In this document: positions 3,035 through 19,503 of the stretch, in pieces
How positions within the stretch are numbered: the first letter of the stretch is position 1
How the letters are laid out: each line of letters starts with the position of its first letter
From: a virus
Length of the DNA stretch: 48,547 nucleotides
Direction: 5' to 3' (one strand)
IMG/VR virus record: IMGVR_UViG_3300027851_001147
Location: 1-48,547 of that record
Notes under the pieces: generated by a model
Database searches by the model: none
Seen by the model: only the letters and a program-made list of their open reading frames with translations
What the model was told of the DNA's origin: nothing
Program-made: the position numbers and the translations under genes

Positions 3035-3154
3035 CTTGTTCGTCCTTTCTGGATCGGCGTCGGAGGTCTGCGACCGGGGATCGGGCTGCACGTGCCAGCG
3101 ACAGGGTTTCTGAACATGCATCTCGTAAAAGTAAAGCCACAAGATACTGACGCG

Positions 3155-3183
3155 ATTCTGAACCGCCGATTTCCGCTTGTCAA
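3155..3183 (-). promoter_or_regulatory. Sigma-70-like promoter of the 411-aa operon
   Basis: On the minus strand a consensus -35 box TTGACA (3183..3178) is followed after exactly 17 nt by CAGAAT (3160..3155), a 4-of-6 match to the -10 box. It lies about 120 nt before the start codon at 3034, leaving a long leader. Confidence 0.55.
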
Positions 3184-3219
3184 TCAACATGGCACATCTG
3201 GCGCTCACTGGTATCTTGT

Positions 3220-3228
3220 TGCTATACT
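3220..3228 (+). promoter_or_regulatory. Extended -10 promoter for the XRE regulator gene
   Basis: TGCTATACT is an extended -10 element (TGn plus TATACT), about 40 nt before the ATG at 3269. No strong -35 is seen, as expected for extended -10 promoters. The divergent minus promoter lies about 40 bp away, so one operator could control both. Confidence 0.5.
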
Positions 3229-3268
3229 TTCGGACTTGTTGAGAACACCGCACTGACAGGAGCAATCG

Positions 3269-12762: not shown

Positions 12763-12986
12763 ACACCACGACTTTGAATCATGTGCTCGGCGAGCAACTG
12801 ATCGACGTACGCCAGGCTGCACTGATGTTCAACCTGCCCTCGTACTGGCTCTCGCAAGCGAAGGAACGCAAGCAGCGTCGCATTCCCCATTACCGCGTCG
12901 GCAAGCTCGTGCGGTTCAAGCCTGCAGAGCTGGAAGCGTGGATTGTCGGGCAGCAAGCGTCTGGCGAGGAGTCTGCGGATGCTTGA
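12759..12986 (+). CDS. Small excisionase-like HTH protein
   Basis: A 75-aa protein with a helix-turn-helix of the AlpA/MerR type: LIDVRQAALMFNLPSYWLSQ, then RIPHYRVGKLVRFKPAELEAWI. The pattern RIPxxRVGKxVRFxxxELExW is typical of the family. Start overlaps the nuclease stop (ATGA), and its own end overlaps the primase start by 8 nt. It may help load the primase-helicase at an origin or regulate the operon; it is the second such protein in the phage. Confidence 0.8.
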   Translation: MNTTTLNHVLGEQLIDVRQAALMFNLPSYWLSQAKERKQRRIPHYRVGKLVRFKPAELEAWIVGQQASGEESADA

Positions 12987-15261
12987 TTTCAACGACACGC
13001 AAAAGCCCGCTCCTCGTGACGTCGATGCCGAACGCGATGCAATCCGCGAGGCATTGCTCTCGCGGCTGGAATCGGTACTGGCAACGCTGTTCCCTGCAGG
13101 CAAGAAGCGCGGTGGCAAATTCCTGATCGGCGACGTGCTCGGTAGTCCGGGTGACAGCCTGGAAGTCGTGCTCACTGGTGACAAGACCGGTCTGTGGACG
13201 GATCGCGCCACTGGCGACGGCGGCGACATTTTCTCCCTGATCGCGGCCCACCTCGGCATCGATGCGCACACCGACTTCCCACGCGTGCTCGATACCGCGA
13301 CCGAACTGGTCGGGCGTGCTCCGGCGACTCTGGCGCGCAGGAGCAAGAAGGATGCTCCCGTCGATGACCTCGGCCCGGCCACCGCGAAGTGGGACTACCT
13401 CGATGCGGCGGGACATCTCATCGCCGTCGTCTACCGCTACGACCCGCTCGGGCAAAGGAAGCAGTTCCGACCCTGGGATGCCAAGCGGCGCAGGATGGCA
13501 CCGCCCGATCCGCGCCCGCTCTACAACCAGCCGGGGATGAGCAGTGCCGCGCAGGTGGTGTTGGTCGAAGGCGAAAAATGCGCGCAGGCGCTGATCGACG
13601 CGGGCATCGTGGCCACCACGGCGATGCACGGCGCGAACGCCCCGGTCGACAAGACCGACTGGTCGCCGCTTTCGGCCAAGGCGGTGTTGATCTGGCCCGA
13701 CCGCGACAAACCGGGCTGGGACTACGCGGCACAGGCGGCGCAGGCCATCCTGTCGGCGGGTGCGAAGTCCTGCCACATCCTCTATCCGCCCGAGGAGGCT
13801 GCCGAGGGCTGGGACGTGGCGGACGCCATCGCCGAGGGCTTCGATGTCGCCACCTTTCTCACCCACGGCCCACGCTTGCAGATGCACGACGTGGCCGATG
13901 ACATTGATCCGGTGGTCAGCAGCGACGAATCCGTCTGGGGTACGGAGGATGCGCTGGCGCTGTCCTTCACCCGCCGCTACCACCGTGACTGGCGTTACGT
14001 GGCTGGCTGGGGCAAGTGGCTGGTGTGGGACGGCCAACGCTGGCGCACCGAGGACACGCTGGCCGCCACCGACCTGATCCGAAGCGTCTGCCGCCAGACC
14101 GCCGTCCGCGCCGATAACCCCAAGGTCGCGGCGAAGCTCGCCAGCGCCAGCACGGTCGGTGGTGTGGAGCGGCTGGCGCGCGCTGACCGCAGGCACGCGG
14201 CCACCACCGACGAGTGGGACGCCGATCCGTGGCTGCTCAACACGTCGGGCGGCGTGGTCGATCTCAAGACAGGCCGGATGCGCCCGCACGAGCGCGCCGA
14301 CCGGATGACCAAGATCACCACAGCCACACCCAGCGGCGACTGCCCGACGTGGAAGCAGTTCATCGACGAGGTCACGGGCGGCGAAAAGGAACTTCAGTCC
14401 TACCTGCAACGAATGGTCGGTTACGCGCTGACTGGCTCGACGCAGGAGCACGCGCTGTTTTTCCTGTACGGCACGGGCGCGAACGGCAAGTCGGTGTTCG
14501 TGAACACCTTGGCCACCATCCTCGGCGACTACGCGACCAATGCGCCGATGGACACCTTCATGGAGACGCGCACCGACCGGCACCCGACCGATATGGCGGG
14601 GCTGCGCGGAGCACGCTTCGTGGCGGCCATCGAAACCGAACAGGGCAAGCGCTGGGCCGAATCCAAGCTCAAGAACCTGACCGGTGGCGACAAGATCTCT
14701 GCGCGCTTCATGCGCCAGGACTTCTTCGAGTTCTTCCCGCAGTTCAAGTTGTTCGTGGCGGGCAACCACAGGCCCGCCATTCGCAACATCGACGAGGCGA
14801 TGAAACGCAGGCTGCACCTGATCCCTTTCACGATCACCGTGCCGCCAGAGCGCCGTGACAAGAACCTGCAGCAGAAGCTCCTGGCCGAACGTGACGGCAT
14901 CTTGGCGTGGGCCGTACAGGGTTGCCTCGACTGGCAACGCCACGGACGACTCTCCCCGCCGCAGCGGGTGGTGGACGCCACCGAGGAGTATTTCGAAGCC
15001 GAGGATGCGTTGGGCCGCTGGCTCGATGAGCGCTGCGTGCGCGAGGCCAACGCCAAGTCGCTTACGGCAGAACTGTTCAACGACTGGAAGCCGTGGGCCG
15101 AGGCAGCAGGCGAATTCACCGGTTCGCAGAAGCGCTTTGCCGATCTGCTGCTCAACCGGGGCTTGGACAAATGGCGCAACGGCATGGGCTTGCGCGGGTT
15201 TCAGGGCATTGGCCTCAAGTACCCGCCAGCACCCACCTACACCCCTTACGCCGATGACTGA
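12979..15261 (+). CDS. P4-type primase-helicase (TOPRIM plus SF3/D5)
   Basis: A 760-aa replication protein. The N-terminal half holds a TOPRIM-like primase part: LVEGEKCAQALIDAG near residue 196 and IWPDRDKPG with D241 and D243. The C-terminal half is a D5_N plus superfamily 3 helicase: Walker A GTGANGKS at 498..505, then EQGKRWAESKLKNLTGGD and a sensor segment FKLFVAGNHRP with basic KRRLHLIPF. No N-terminal zinc finger is evident. GAGGAG lies 7 nt before ATG 12979. It would initiate phage replication; the inverted-repeat element just after it is a candidate origin. Confidence 0.93.
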   Translation: MLDFNDTQKPAPRDVDAERDAIREALLSRLESVLATLFPAGKKRGGKFLIGDVLGSPGDSLEVVLTGDKTGLWTDRATGDGGDIFSLIAAHLGIDAHTDFPRVLDTATELVGRAPATLARRSKKDAPVDDLGPATAKWDYLDAAGHLIAVVYRYDPLGQRKQFRPWDAKRRRMAPPDPRPLYNQPGMSSAAQVVLVEGEKCAQALIDAGIVATTAMHGANAPVDKTDWSPLSAKAVLIWPDRDKPGWDYAAQAAQAILSAGAKSCHILYPPEEAAEGWDVADAIAEGFDVATFLTHGPRLQMHDVADDIDPVVSSDESVWGTEDALALSFTRRYHRDWRYVAGWGKWLVWDGQRWRTEDTLAATDLIRSVCRQTAVRADNPKVAAKLASASTVGGVERLARADRRHAATTDEWDADPWLLNTSGGVVDLKTGRMRPHERADRMTKITTATPSGDCPTWKQFIDEVTGGEKELQSYLQRMVGYALTGSTQEHALFFLYGTGANGKSVFVNTLATILGDYATNAPMDTFMETRTDRHPTDMAGLRGARFVAAIETEQGKRWAESKLKNLTGGDKISARFMRQDFFEFFPQFKLFVAGNHRPAIRNIDEAMKRRLHLIPFTITVPPERRDKNLQQKLLAERDGILAWAVQGCLDWQRHGRLSPPQRVVDATEEYFEAEDALGRWLDERCVREANAKSLTAELFNDWKPWAEAAGEFTGSQKRFADLLLNRGLDKWRNGMGLRGFQGIGLKYPPAPTYTPYADD

Positions 15262-15385
15262 CACAACCGCGTCTGACGGATCGGACGGACTACGTCGTAA
15301 CTCCTACACGTGCGCGTGCGCGCGCCTCATGGAAGGTTTCGATACGACCCGTCCGATCCGTCAGACCAGCCAAAACAAGGACTGA
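15254..15385 (+). CDS. Small ORF spanning the inverted-repeat element (uncertain)
   Basis: A 43-aa frame starts inside the primase stop region (ATGACTGA) and ends just before the RuvC-like gene. The peptide contains SDGSDG and a cysteine pair (CAC) and has no recognised domain. Its sequence is dictated by the DNA structure it covers, an 18-bp inverted repeat and an alternating purine-pyrimidine tract, so it may be only incidentally open. Coupling to the primase stop would let it be translated. Confidence 0.3.
   Translation: MTDTTASDGSDGLRRNSYTCACARLMEGFDTTRPIRQTSQNKD
15271..15366. repeat. 96-bp element: 18-bp perfect inverted repeats flanking a Z-DNA-prone tract
   Basis: GTCTGACGGATCGGACGG (15271..15288) is perfectly inverted as CCGTCCGATCCGTCAGAC (15349..15366). 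Each arm holds two GACGG units, so it also looks iteron-like. Between the arms lies a 21-nt run (15305..15325) of strictly alternating pyrimidine and purine. It fills the gap between primase-helicase and resolvase genes. Candidate roles are replication origin, cruciform regulatory site or structured RNA. Confidence 0.8.
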
Positions 15386-15389
15386 CACC

Positions 15390-15866
15390 ATGACCACCAC
15401 CATCCTCGCCCTCGATCTGGGCACCACCACCGGCTGGGCGCTGCGCGGCAGCGACGGCCACACCACCAGCGGTTCCGAGAGCTTCCGGCCACAGCGCTTC
15501 GAAGGTGGCGGAATGCGCTTCCTGCGCTTCAAACGCTGGCTCACCGAGATCAAGCAATCCTGCGACGGCATCGACTGCCTGCACTTCGAGGAGGTGCGAC
15601 GCCATGTCTCCACGGATGCTGCCCACGCCTACGGCGGGTTCCTTGCCACGCTCACCGCGTGGTGTGAGCACCACCAGATCCCGTACCAGGGCGTGCCGGT
15701 CGGCACGATCAAGAAGCACGCGACCGGCAAAGGCAATGCCAGCAAGGACGAGATGGTGGCTTCTGCCCGTGCCCGTGGTCACGCTCCGGCCGACGACAAC
15801 GAAGCCGACGCCCTGGCCCTGCTGCACTGGGCCATCGAGCAGCACGCACTGGAACGGGAGGTGTGA
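15390..15866 (+). CDS. RuvC-like Holliday junction resolvase
   Basis: A 158-aa protein of the RuvC/RNase H fold. It starts ILALDLGTTTGWAL with the first catalytic aspartate D9, has LHFEEVRRH with E67/E68, a lysine-rich segment (GTIKKHATGKGNASKDEM) and ends in DDNEADALALLHW with the DxxxD-like acidic pair (D136, D140). This is the classical RuvC order D-E-D-D. It would resolve recombination or replication junctions before packaging. Start follows a weak GGACTGACACC site shortly after the inverted-repeat element. Confidence 0.92.
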   Translation: MTTTILALDLGTTTGWALRGSDGHTTSGSESFRPQRFEGGGMRFLRFKRWLTEIKQSCDGIDCLHFEEVRRHVSTDAAHAYGGFLATLTAWCEHHQIPYQGVPVGTIKKHATGKGNASKDEMVASARARGHAPADDNEADALALLHWAIEQHALEREV

Positions 15867-16822: not shown

Positions 16823-18244
16823 TTGAACACGCTCAACGTCGAGTACCGCAAGGTCGAGGCGCTGATTCCCTACGCCCGCAATCCGCGCACGCACGCCGAG
16901 GGTCAGATCGCCAAGATCGCGGCCAGCATCGTCGAGTATGGCTGGACGAACCCGATCCTCGTCGACGGCGACAACGGGATCATCGCCGGGCACGGACGTC
17001 TGGCCGCTGCCCGCAAGCTGGGGCTGGATCAGGTGCCGGTGATCGAACTGGCCCATCTGAACGTCGCGCAGAAGCGCGCGCTGGTGATCGCCGACAACCG
17101 GCTGGCACTGGATGCGGGCTGGGACGAGGAAATGCTGGCGCTGGAATTGGCCGACCTGTCCGAGGCGGGGTACGACCTTGCGCTGACGGGTTTCGAGGAT
17201 GCCGAGATCGAGGCGCTGCTCACGGGTGAGGTGACCGACACCGATGCTGACCCGGACCCGGACCCGGACGCCGACGAACCGGACGCAGCGGACGACGTAC
17301 CGGATGCCCCTGTCGTGGCGGTGTCCCGCCCTGGCGATGTCTGGGCCATCGGGTCGCACCGGCTGATCTGCGGCGACGCCACCGACCGGGCCGTGGTCGC
17401 GGCGCTGATGCAAGGCGACACCGCGCACCTGTGCTTCACCTCGCCGCCCTACGGCAACCAGCGCGACTACACCTCGGGCGGCATCACCGATTGGGATGGC
17501 CTGATGCGCGGCGTGTTCGCGCATCTGCCGATGGCGAGCGATGGGCAGGTGCTGGTCAACCTGGGTCTGATCCACCGCGACAACGAGGTGATCCCGTATT
17601 GGGATGCGTGGCTCGGCTGGATGCGCAGCCAGGGCTGGCGGCGCTTTGCGTGGTACGTCTGGGATCAGGGGCCGGGGATGCCCGGCGACTGGGCAGGACG
17701 CTTCGCGCCGAGCTTCGAGTTCGTTTTCCACTTCAACCGCGAAAGCCGCAAGCCGAACAAGATCGTGCCCTGCAAGCACGCCGGGCAGGAATCGCACCTG
17801 CGCGCCGATGGCTCGTCCACGGCGATGCGGGGCAAGGACGGCGAAGTCGGCGGCTGGACGCACGAGGGCCAGCCGACGCAGGACACGCGCATCCCCGACA
17901 GCGTGATCCGCGTGATGCGCCACAAGGGCAAGATCGGTCAGGACATCGACCACCCCGCCGTTTTCCCGGTGGCGCTGCCGGAGTTCGTGATCGAGGCCTA
18001 CAGCGACGCTGGCGACATCGTGTTCGAACCCTTCGGTGGCAGCGGCACCACGATGCTGGCGGCCGAGCGCACGGGCCGCGTCTGCCGCAGCGTGGAAATC
18101 GCGCCGGAGTACGTGGACGTCGCCATCAAACGCTTCCAGCAGAACCACCCCGGTGTGCCGGTCAGCTTGATCGCCACCGGTCAGTCCTTCGAGCAGGTCG
18201 CCGCCGAGCGCGCTACCACCTCTGACATCGAGGTGATGGTATGA
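16823..18244 (+). CDS. ParB-domain DNA methyltransferase fusion (first copy)
   Basis: A 473-aa fusion. Residues about 5..100 form a ParB-N/Srx-like nuclease domain (YARNPRTH, TNPILVDGDNGIIAGHGRLAAARKLG). A linker of repeated Asp-Pro (DPDPDPDADEPD) follows. The methyltransferase domain has motif IV TSPPYG at 206..211 and motif I FEPFGGSGTT at 401..410, a beta-class order. TSPPY is usual in N4-cytosine enzymes but also occurs in N6-adenine enzymes. Start is TTG 16823. Its stop overlaps the ATG of a second, related gene. It would protect phage DNA from restriction or mark packaged DNA. Confidence 0.9.
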   Translation: MNTLNVEYRKVEALIPYARNPRTHAEGQIAKIAASIVEYGWTNPILVDGDNGIIAGHGRLAAARKLGLDQVPVIELAHLNVAQKRALVIADNRLALDAGWDEEMLALELADLSEAGYDLALTGFEDAEIEALLTGEVTDTDADPDPDPDADEPDAADDVPDAPVVAVSRPGDVWAIGSHRLICGDATDRAVVAALMQGDTAHLCFTSPPYGNQRDYTSGGITDWDGLMRGVFAHLPMASDGQVLVNLGLIHRDNEVIPYWDAWLGWMRSQGWRRFAWYVWDQGPGMPGDWAGRFAPSFEFVFHFNRESRKPNKIVPCKHAGQESHLRADGSSTAMRGKDGEVGGWTHEGQPTQDTRIPDSVIRVMRHKGKIGQDIDHPAVFPVALPEFVIEAYSDAGDIVFEPFGGSGTTMLAAERTGRVCRSVEIAPEYVDVAIKRFQQNHPGVPVSLIATGQSFEQVAAERATTSDIEVMV

Positions 18245-19503
18245 ACTGGCTGGCCGACAAGATCGAGCAGTGGCCGACAGCCAAGCTGCTGCCCTACGCC
18301 CGCAACGCGCGCACCCACTCTGAGGACCAAGTGGCGCAGATAGCCGCCAGCATTGCGGAGTTCGGCTTCACCAATCCGATCCTGGCGGGTAGCGACGGCA
18401 TCATCGTCGCTGGCCACGGTCGTCTCGCCGCCGCCCAGAAACTCGGGCTGGAGATCGTGCCGGTGGTCGTGCTCGATCACCTGACGCCAACGCAGCGCCG
18501 CGCACTGGTCATCGCAGACAACCGCATTGCCGAGAACGCAGGCTGGGATGATGCGATGTTGCGGATCGAGTTGGAGGCGCTGCAGCTGGACGGTTTCGAC
18601 CTCGATATCACCGGCTTTGACGCCGACGCGCTGGCGGAACTGATCGCGGGCGACGAGCCGGACATCGAGGGGCAGACCGATCAGGATGTGGTGCCGGAGG
18701 TCGGCGAGACGCCGATTTCGCGCCCGGGCGATGTCTGGGTGCTGGGCCCACACCGGCTGCTGTGCGGCGATGCCACCGTGGCGGCAAGCTACGAGGCCTT
18801 GCTGCAAGGCGAGCCGGTCGACATGGTCTTCACAGACCCGCCGTACAACGTGAACTACGCCAACAGCGCCAAAGACAAGATGCGCGGCAAGGATCGCGCG
18901 ATCCTCAACGACAACTTGGGCGACGGCTTCTACGACTTCCTTCTGGCAGCGCTGACGCCGACCGTCGCGCATTGCCGGGGCGGGATCTACGTGGCGATGT
19001 CCTCCAGCGAACTCGATGTGCTGCAGGCCGCCTTCCGCGCTGCCGGTGGCAAATGGTCGACCTTCATCATCTGGGCCAAGAACACCTTCACGCTGGGTCG
19101 CGCCGATTACCAGCGCCAGTACGAGCCAATCCTCTACGGCTGGCCCGAGGGGGCGACACGCCACTGGTGTGGCGACCGCGACCAGGGCGACGTCTGGGCC
19201 ATCAAGAAGCCGCAGAAGAACGACCTGCACCCGACCATGAAACCGGTGGAGTTGGTCGAGCGCGCGATCCGCAATTCGAGCCGCCCCGGCAACGTGGTGC
19301 TCGATCCCTTCGGTGGCTCTGGCACGACGCTGATTGCAGCGGAGAAGTCAGGTCGCGTTGTGCGGCTGATCGAACTCGATCCGAAGTACGTGGACGTGAT
19401 CGTGCGCCGGTGGGAGGACTTCACCGGCAAGCAGGCCACCCGCGAGGCAGATGGCGCGGCGCTCGATCAGGCGGCGAGCGACTCGTCGATGATCTCGCAG
19501 TGA
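18241..19503 (+). CDS. ParB-domain DNA methyltransferase fusion (second copy)
   Basis: A 420-aa paralogue of the preceding protein. The ParB-N part is clearly related (LLPYARNARTHSEDQVAQIAA, DGIIVAGHGRLAAAQKLGL). Motif IV is DPPYN at 199..203, typical of N6-adenine methylation, and motif I is LDPFGGSGTT at 354..363, followed by LDPKYVDVIVRRWE. The linker is shorter and lacks the Asp-Pro run. ATG 18241 overlaps the upstream stop. The two copies have the same architecture but different catalytic motifs, so they probably modify different sequences or bases. Its 3' end overlaps the convergent minus-strand gene by 37 nt. Confidence 0.92.
   Translation: MNWLADKIEQWPTAKLLPYARNARTHSEDQVAQIAASIAEFGFTNPILAGSDGIIVAGHGRLAAAQKLGLEIVPVVVLDHLTPTQRRALVIADNRIAENAGWDDAMLRIELEALQLDGFDLDITGFDADALAELIAGDEPDIEGQTDQDVVPEVGETPISRPGDVWVLGPHRLLCGDATVAASYEALLQGEPVDMVFTDPPYNVNYANSAKDKMRGKDRAILNDNLGDGFYDFLLAALTPTVAHCRGGIYVAMSSSELDVLQAAFRAAGGKWSTFIIWAKNTFTLGRADYQRQYEPILYGWPEGATRHWCGDRDQGDVWAIKKPQKNDLHPTMKPVELVERAIRNSSRPGNVVLDPFGGSGTTLIAAEKSGRVVRLIELDPKYVDVIVRRWEDFTGKQATREADGAALDQAASDSSMISQ

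Follow-up and report, generated by a model that had tools for sequence, protein, structure and literature searches.

A probable phage replication origin of inverted iteron pairs around an alternating purine-pyrimidine core, directly 3' of a D5-type primase-helicase gene

Overview

We analyzed a 48,547-nt stretch of viral DNA (positions 1 to 48,547 of IMG/VR record IMGVR_UViG_3300027851_001147), hereafter the window, and focused on a palindromic element between a primase-helicase gene and a RuvC-like resolvase gene. Its layout recurs 3' of other D5-type primases, including at the annotated origin of Streptococcus phage Sfi21, and we conclude that the element is very probably a phage replication origin recognized by the primase-helicase encoded just upstream. 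The original prediction of a phage origin with iteron-like units is thus well supported, by the conserved position 3' of the primase-helicase gene, co-variation of the iterons with the winged helix of that protein, exchange of the iterons together with its helicase half, and the presence of the layout in the Sfi21 origin.

Architecture of the element

The spacer holding the proposed origin (15262-15389, plus strand) measures 128 nt, with the primase stop codon ending at 15261 and the resolvase ATG at 15390; the element takes up 96 nt of it rather than filling the gap exactly, as had been stated. Its left arm (15271-15288) and right arm (15349-15366, the inverted copy, on the minus strand) are 18 nt each, 100% complementary and separated by 60 nt, and each contains the GACGG unit twice, all of which agrees with what had been predicted. 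This is the sole perfectly complementary inverted repeat of at least 14 nt within 200 nt across the 48.5-kb window. Each arm consists of two direct iterons, so that the palindrome amounts to two inverted pairs of iterons around a core. On the plus strand lie L1 (TGACGGA, 15274-15280) and, 9 bp from it, L2 (GGACGGA, 15283-15289); on the minus strand lie the outer R1 (TGACGGA, 15357-15363) and the inner R2 (GGACGGG, 15348-15354). The 21-nt strict purine-pyrimidine alternation, TACACGTGCGCGTGCGCGCGC, sits at 15305-15325 (plus strand) as claimed and forms the proposed structural core. DNA folding additionally pairs an inner arm, GTCGTA (15294-15299, plus strand), with TACGAC at 15343-15348, and inner complementarity in homologues is modestly higher than in shuffled sequences (mean 5.35 vs 4.0). 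The folded strand is much more stable than shuffles, with z scores of -6.5 as RNA and -5.8 as DNA.

A mobile or repeated element was rejected, as there is neither a second copy of the element or of an iteron block elsewhere in the 48.5-kb window nor a copy in plasmids searched by DNA similarity. A coding explanation fails as well. The 43-aa frame noted over the element does exist, with its ATG in the last primase codons and its TGA ending at 15385, but it is merely the tail of a longer open frame (14855-15385) and is free of coding constraint, because palindrome lengths in 154 homologues vary regardless of frame and spread evenly over the residues modulo 3 (58/51/45).

Several other features of the window deserve mention. 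A spaced inverted repeat, AAAGTAAAGCCACAAGATAC / GTATCTTGTTGCTATACTTT, lies in a lower-GC region at 3128-3230, its arms 90% complementary and 63 nt apart. The record opens with a tRNA-Ala gene (161-236, anticodon cgc), which may mark a prophage attachment site or host flank. Just downstream of the replication block, two adjacent genes (16823-19503) match a pair in AcaML1 annotated as DNA modification methylases.

Conservation among homologous spacers

Protein searches returned about 240 loci, 208 of which have the primase and resolvase genes adjacent, giving 154 distinct spacers of 115-148 nt. Many of these relatives are beta- and gammaproteobacterial genome loci, presumably prophages. All 154 spacers start at the primase stop codon, and the inverted iteron layout is present between the primase-helicase and resolvase genes in essentially all of them; relatives that lack the element while keeping its neighbors intact, which would have spoken against the prediction, were not encountered within this primase family. 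Best ungapped inverted-repeat scores center on 15-17 compared to 5-7 in shuffles, and the longest alternating runs, centered near the dyad axis, on 21-23 nt compared to 6-8, indicating that the layout is not due to chance. Even the 13 weak spacers, with inverted-repeat scores of 7-10, show the arms by eye.

Each arm in these spacers is built from two direct TGACGSA-like units (TGACGCA, TGACGGA, TGACCGA and similar), spaced by 9 bp in 131 loci and by 10 bp in 23, while one side of the AcaML1 element has three direct units of the TGACGGGTC type. In every unit the GAC varies little or not at all, and base 9 (C or G) matches that of the other arm. Within an arm, a change at base 9 of unit 1 is accompanied by one at base 18 of unit 2 in 8.6-9.8 of 10 phylogenetically independent pairs; between the arms, base 9 co-changes in 10 of 10. 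Such identity between direct repeats is predicted by shared recognition by a protein and not by pairing alone. Spacer positions 11 and 13 match between the arms beyond what iteron identity would lead one to expect, and pairing or mutational correction of palindromes may therefore act on the arms in addition. In the window (15376-15389), and frequently in homologues, the ribosome-binding region of the resolvase gene (AAGGACTGACACC-ATG) is overlapped by an additional TGAC unit, which takes the form GGAGTGACCAATG in the TGACC class and is possibly a fifth iteron.

Proposed recognition by the primase-helicase

The gene upstream of the element (12943-15261, plus strand) encodes a D5-type (SF3) primase-helicase, with Pfam matches to D5_N (E 3e-40) and DUF5906 and a match to PHROG 6088, DNA primase (E 1e-240). 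Its longest frame gives 772 aa from a TTG start, and a downstream ATG start is possible. The C-terminal domain, residues 640-772 (14860-15258, plus strand), is the proposed iteron reader and is predicted to be a winged helix: an AlphaFold2 model with 50 homologues reaches a pLDDT of about 85-92 over residues 690-759. A PDB sequence search with this domain gave no significant match; by structure, the best PDB match of the model is the RFX DNA-binding domain in complex with DNA (E 1e-3, a moderate fold match), followed by the African swine fever virus PrimPol, which is also a primase-helicase.

We tested all columns of three proteins, namely the primase, the resolvase and a small helix-turn-helix (HTH) protein whose gene precedes that of the primase, for association with iteron base 9. 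At primase residue 730, 77 of the 81 phages with C at this base have R, and all 37 with G have K, which gives a normalized mutual information (NMI) of 0.82; the NMI is 0.75 for residue 750 and 0.52 for residue 737. The best column of the resolvase (15390-15866, plus strand; PHROG 159, RuvC-like resolvase, E 2e-34) and of the 74-aa HTH protein reaches 0.19, and both are rejected as readers for want of a co-varying residue. On a primase tree limited to residues 13-690, which leaves out the C-terminus, base 9 switched at least 20 times, and residue 730 followed the switch in an average of 9.6 of 10 supported independent pairs, with 0 opposite (p 0.002). Residue 750 did so in 9.1 and residue 737 in 7.4 of 10, whereas the best of the 236 variable primase columns outside residues 700-772 reached 4.3. 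In the predicted fold, K730 and L737 fall in the recognition helix (residues 729-738, 15127-15156, plus strand; K730 at 15130-15132), and the co-varying residues 747-750 in the wing loop (residues 746-750, 15178-15192, plus strand). From this co-variation we infer that the C-terminal winged helix of the primase recognizes the iterons.

A natural exchange of the helicase half bears on the same question. About 25 loci carry a resolvase that is roughly 78-84% identical next to a different primase. In the seven such loci checked, only the first ~311 primase residues align (~54% identical) and the remainder is unrelated, being an AAA_25 helicase in the one primase scanned. In the four swap loci mapped, the motif GCCAACT occurs about 6-10 times, in both orientations, within a spacer of ~310 nt and is nearly absent from the rest of the locus. 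By this comparison, the iterons go with the helicase half and not with the resolvase. The AAA_25 primase-resolvase spacers of L187 (4684-4994), L194, L198, L065 and about 20 further loci look like a second origin-like class, in which some 6-10 GCCAACT/AGTTGGC iterons are followed by two adjacent hairpins, CTCCTACTACGTAGGAG and one of GGGACC/GGTCCC, whose structure seems to be kept in L205 and L220 despite sequence change.

Recurrence in other phages and plasmids

We scanned the regions 3' of D5-type primases for two direct units inverted around a core of 30-130 nt (score at least 19 of 21), using random windows from the same loci as controls. The layout was found in 41 of 52 phi105-like loci (0/279 control windows), 56 of 77 MacnCheese-like loci (5/388) and 10 of 19 Sfi21-like loci (0/91). 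In Sfi21 itself, the pair TTAGTTACTTAGTTA / TAACTAAGTAACTAA flanks a 73-nt core with a GC content of 0.14 and lies inside the record feature ‘origin of replication, 302 bp non-coding region, phage inhibitory sequence’ (NC_000872, 34487-34784). Bacillus, Mycobacterium, Enterococcus and Streptococcus phages (L240, L241, L243, L244 and the surrounding viral families) have doubled inverted iterons of very different sequence 3' of their D5-type primases, while the layout was not detected in Arthrobacter phage Yang. Their presence in these phages runs against the published claim that the layout is unique to satellites of the PICI type.

Similar doubled iterons in inverted arrangement also lie 3' of the primase gene in some, but not all, plasmids that encode a P4-family primase. 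Among eight plasmids with related primases that were tried, the layout is clear in two (L424 and L425), weaker in two (L422 and L426) and was not detected in two (L419 and L421). For example, Methylobacterium plasmid pCB376_1 has inverted doubled iterons, TTGGGACGCTTGGGAC..GTCCCAGTGTCCCAA, 3' of its primase gene.

Alternative explanations

Dual origin/operator sites are common in iteron replicons, and the primase could use these sites instead, or also, to regulate transcription. A pure operator, bound by the primase or another protein to regulate downstream genes while replication starts elsewhere, would likewise account for a DNA-binding site revealed by co-variation and for an intergenic position inside an operon. 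We consider it improbable, however: no sigma-70-like promoter was found at the element, there is just one such site in the phage, and the equivalent position is the annotated origin in Sfi21 and a tested origin in PICIs (PMC6092414).

The element could alternatively extrude as a cruciform or hairpin and serve as the substrate of the RuvC-like resolvase encoded next to it, as also proposed originally. The adjacency of that gene, the strength of the palindrome, which is able to extrude, and the match between the arms at positions beyond the iteron core all fit such a role. Yet none of the resolvase residues co-varies with the element, and a different helicase half comes with a different element even where the resolvase remains similar. 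The layout is also found beside primases with other neighbors, for instance in Sfi21, in phi105 and in MacnCheese, which has a RusA-like resolvase. A resolvase substrate is therefore a very improbable explanation.

Least probable of the three is a structured RNA in the primase-resolvase transcript, such as a translational regulator of the resolvase, the third role suggested at the outset: its very stable hairpin, nearby downstream resolvase start codon and excess of G.T over A.C mismatches within the 18-nt arms (94 to 48) are set against near-equal mismatches over the whole hairpin (388 to 408) and hence no consistent strand bias or G-U preference, minus-strand folds as stable as plus-strand ones, no Rfam match at E up to 1, and the failure of RNA pairing to explain direct-repeat identity and co-variation with the primase winged helix.

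A model for initiation

If the element is an origin, the C-terminal winged helix would bind the four short iterons as two inverted pairs, and their inverted arrangement, following the precedent of SF3 helicases and SaPI Rep, would load two helicase rings facing each other. The two rings would then open the core of about 60 bp between the pairs, where the primase would make the first primers before the host replisome takes over. The core itself would most likely have a structural role, as an easily deformed or B-Z-switching segment replacing the AT-rich core of related origins. GC skew across the element changes weakly and is weak as evidence for an origin.

The alternating core

The cores of this phage group have an average GC content of 0.58, compared to 0.14 for the Sfi21 family and 0.21 for the phi105 family; the AT-rich cores of these two families often contain ATATATATA runs. 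An alternating run of at least 12 nt is found in 148 of the 154 spacers, and the six spacers lacking one indicate that it is not absolutely required. Between close spacer pairs, changes inside the run comprise 69 transitions and 4 transversions (68 and 1 under a first pairing, 34 and 1 when whole spacers are paired), whereas the core outside the run shows 84 transitions vs 77-82 transversions. Decay of CpG sites as the cause of this transition-only pattern was rejected, since CpG sites outside the run show both types of change (14 transitions and 10 transversions, compared to 32 and 1 inside).

The letters of the run drift among CG, TG, CA and TA while alternation is retained, suggesting that a structural property is under selection. 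The obvious one to consider is the potential to form Z-DNA; the flexibility of pyrimidine-purine steps is another. A tentative and rather doubtful extension is that the core acts as a functional Z-DNA (or Z/cruciform) switch, which negative supercoiling and initiator binding would flip out of B-form, opening the origin in place of AT-rich melting. If true, selection in this origin family would be preserving the capacity for left-handed DNA itself.

Relation to known origins

The element had been described as a combination not matching any known feature type. This overstates the case: PICI/SaPI satellites, plasmid pRN1 and phage Sfi21 are all known to have origins located directly 3' of D5/SF3-type replication genes. 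What is added to this known kind of origin is the present family, the link between an iteron base and a primase residue, and the alternating core, and our search of the open-access literature found no paper on any of these three.

SV40 large T antigen is an SF3 helicase that loads as a double hexamer on the four short motifs of site II, which form two inverted pairs. These motifs are contiguous and the binding domain of T antigen is N-terminal, whereas the motifs here are split by 60 bp. The layout of the origin of satellite phage P4 also differs from the element described here. The P4 alpha protein is a primase-helicase whose C-terminal winged helix, according to the account cited in PMC4234260, binds origin repeats; its origin-binding domain is absent among the structural matches listed for our model, where RFX ranks best.

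A close parallel is found in the Rep-ori modules of PICI/SaPI satellites (PMC6092414, PMC7581432), which lie directly 3' of a D5-type Rep/primase gene, as the element does in its position at the primase stop, and in which two sets of iterons likewise flank a core. The C-terminal domains of SaPI Rep and SCCmec Cch2 recognize iterons downstream of their own genes (PMC7581432), comparable to the role that co-variation at residues 730, 737 and 750 suggests here. The PICI core is described as AT-rich, in contrast to the GC-rich, strictly alternating run seen here, and the host element is a phage rather than a satellite. The Sfi21 origin is similarly non-coding and directly 3' of a Pox_D5/DUF5906 primase gene, with doubled iterons inverted around a core, and differs in iteron sequence, in its AT-rich core and in an 8-bp period. 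Plasmid pRN1 depends for its replication on a 100-nt stem-loop located 3' of the gene for its SF3 replication protein, and the authors of that work noted a similar one in Bordetella phage BIP-1 (PMC4234260). The pRN1 stem of 21 nt and loop of 58 nt resemble the 18 and 60 nt here, and its replication protein also ends in a winged helix, matched here by a D5_N-domain protein with a modeled winged helix. Unlike the element, in which each arm holds two direct iterons, the pRN1 stem-loop is described as being without iterons; the plasmid is archaeal, and its replication protein contains a prim/pol domain.

Implications

Two inverted pairs of doubled iterons just 3' of a D5-type primase gene would provide a testable rule for finding the origins of many temperate phages from sequence alone. 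One iteron base is linked to one initiator residue, so specificity can be tested by single swaps. The occurrence of the same organization downstream of phage primase genes is directly relevant to the ancestry of satellite replicons, and the strictly alternating core is a natural case for testing a role of Z-DNA at a replication origin.
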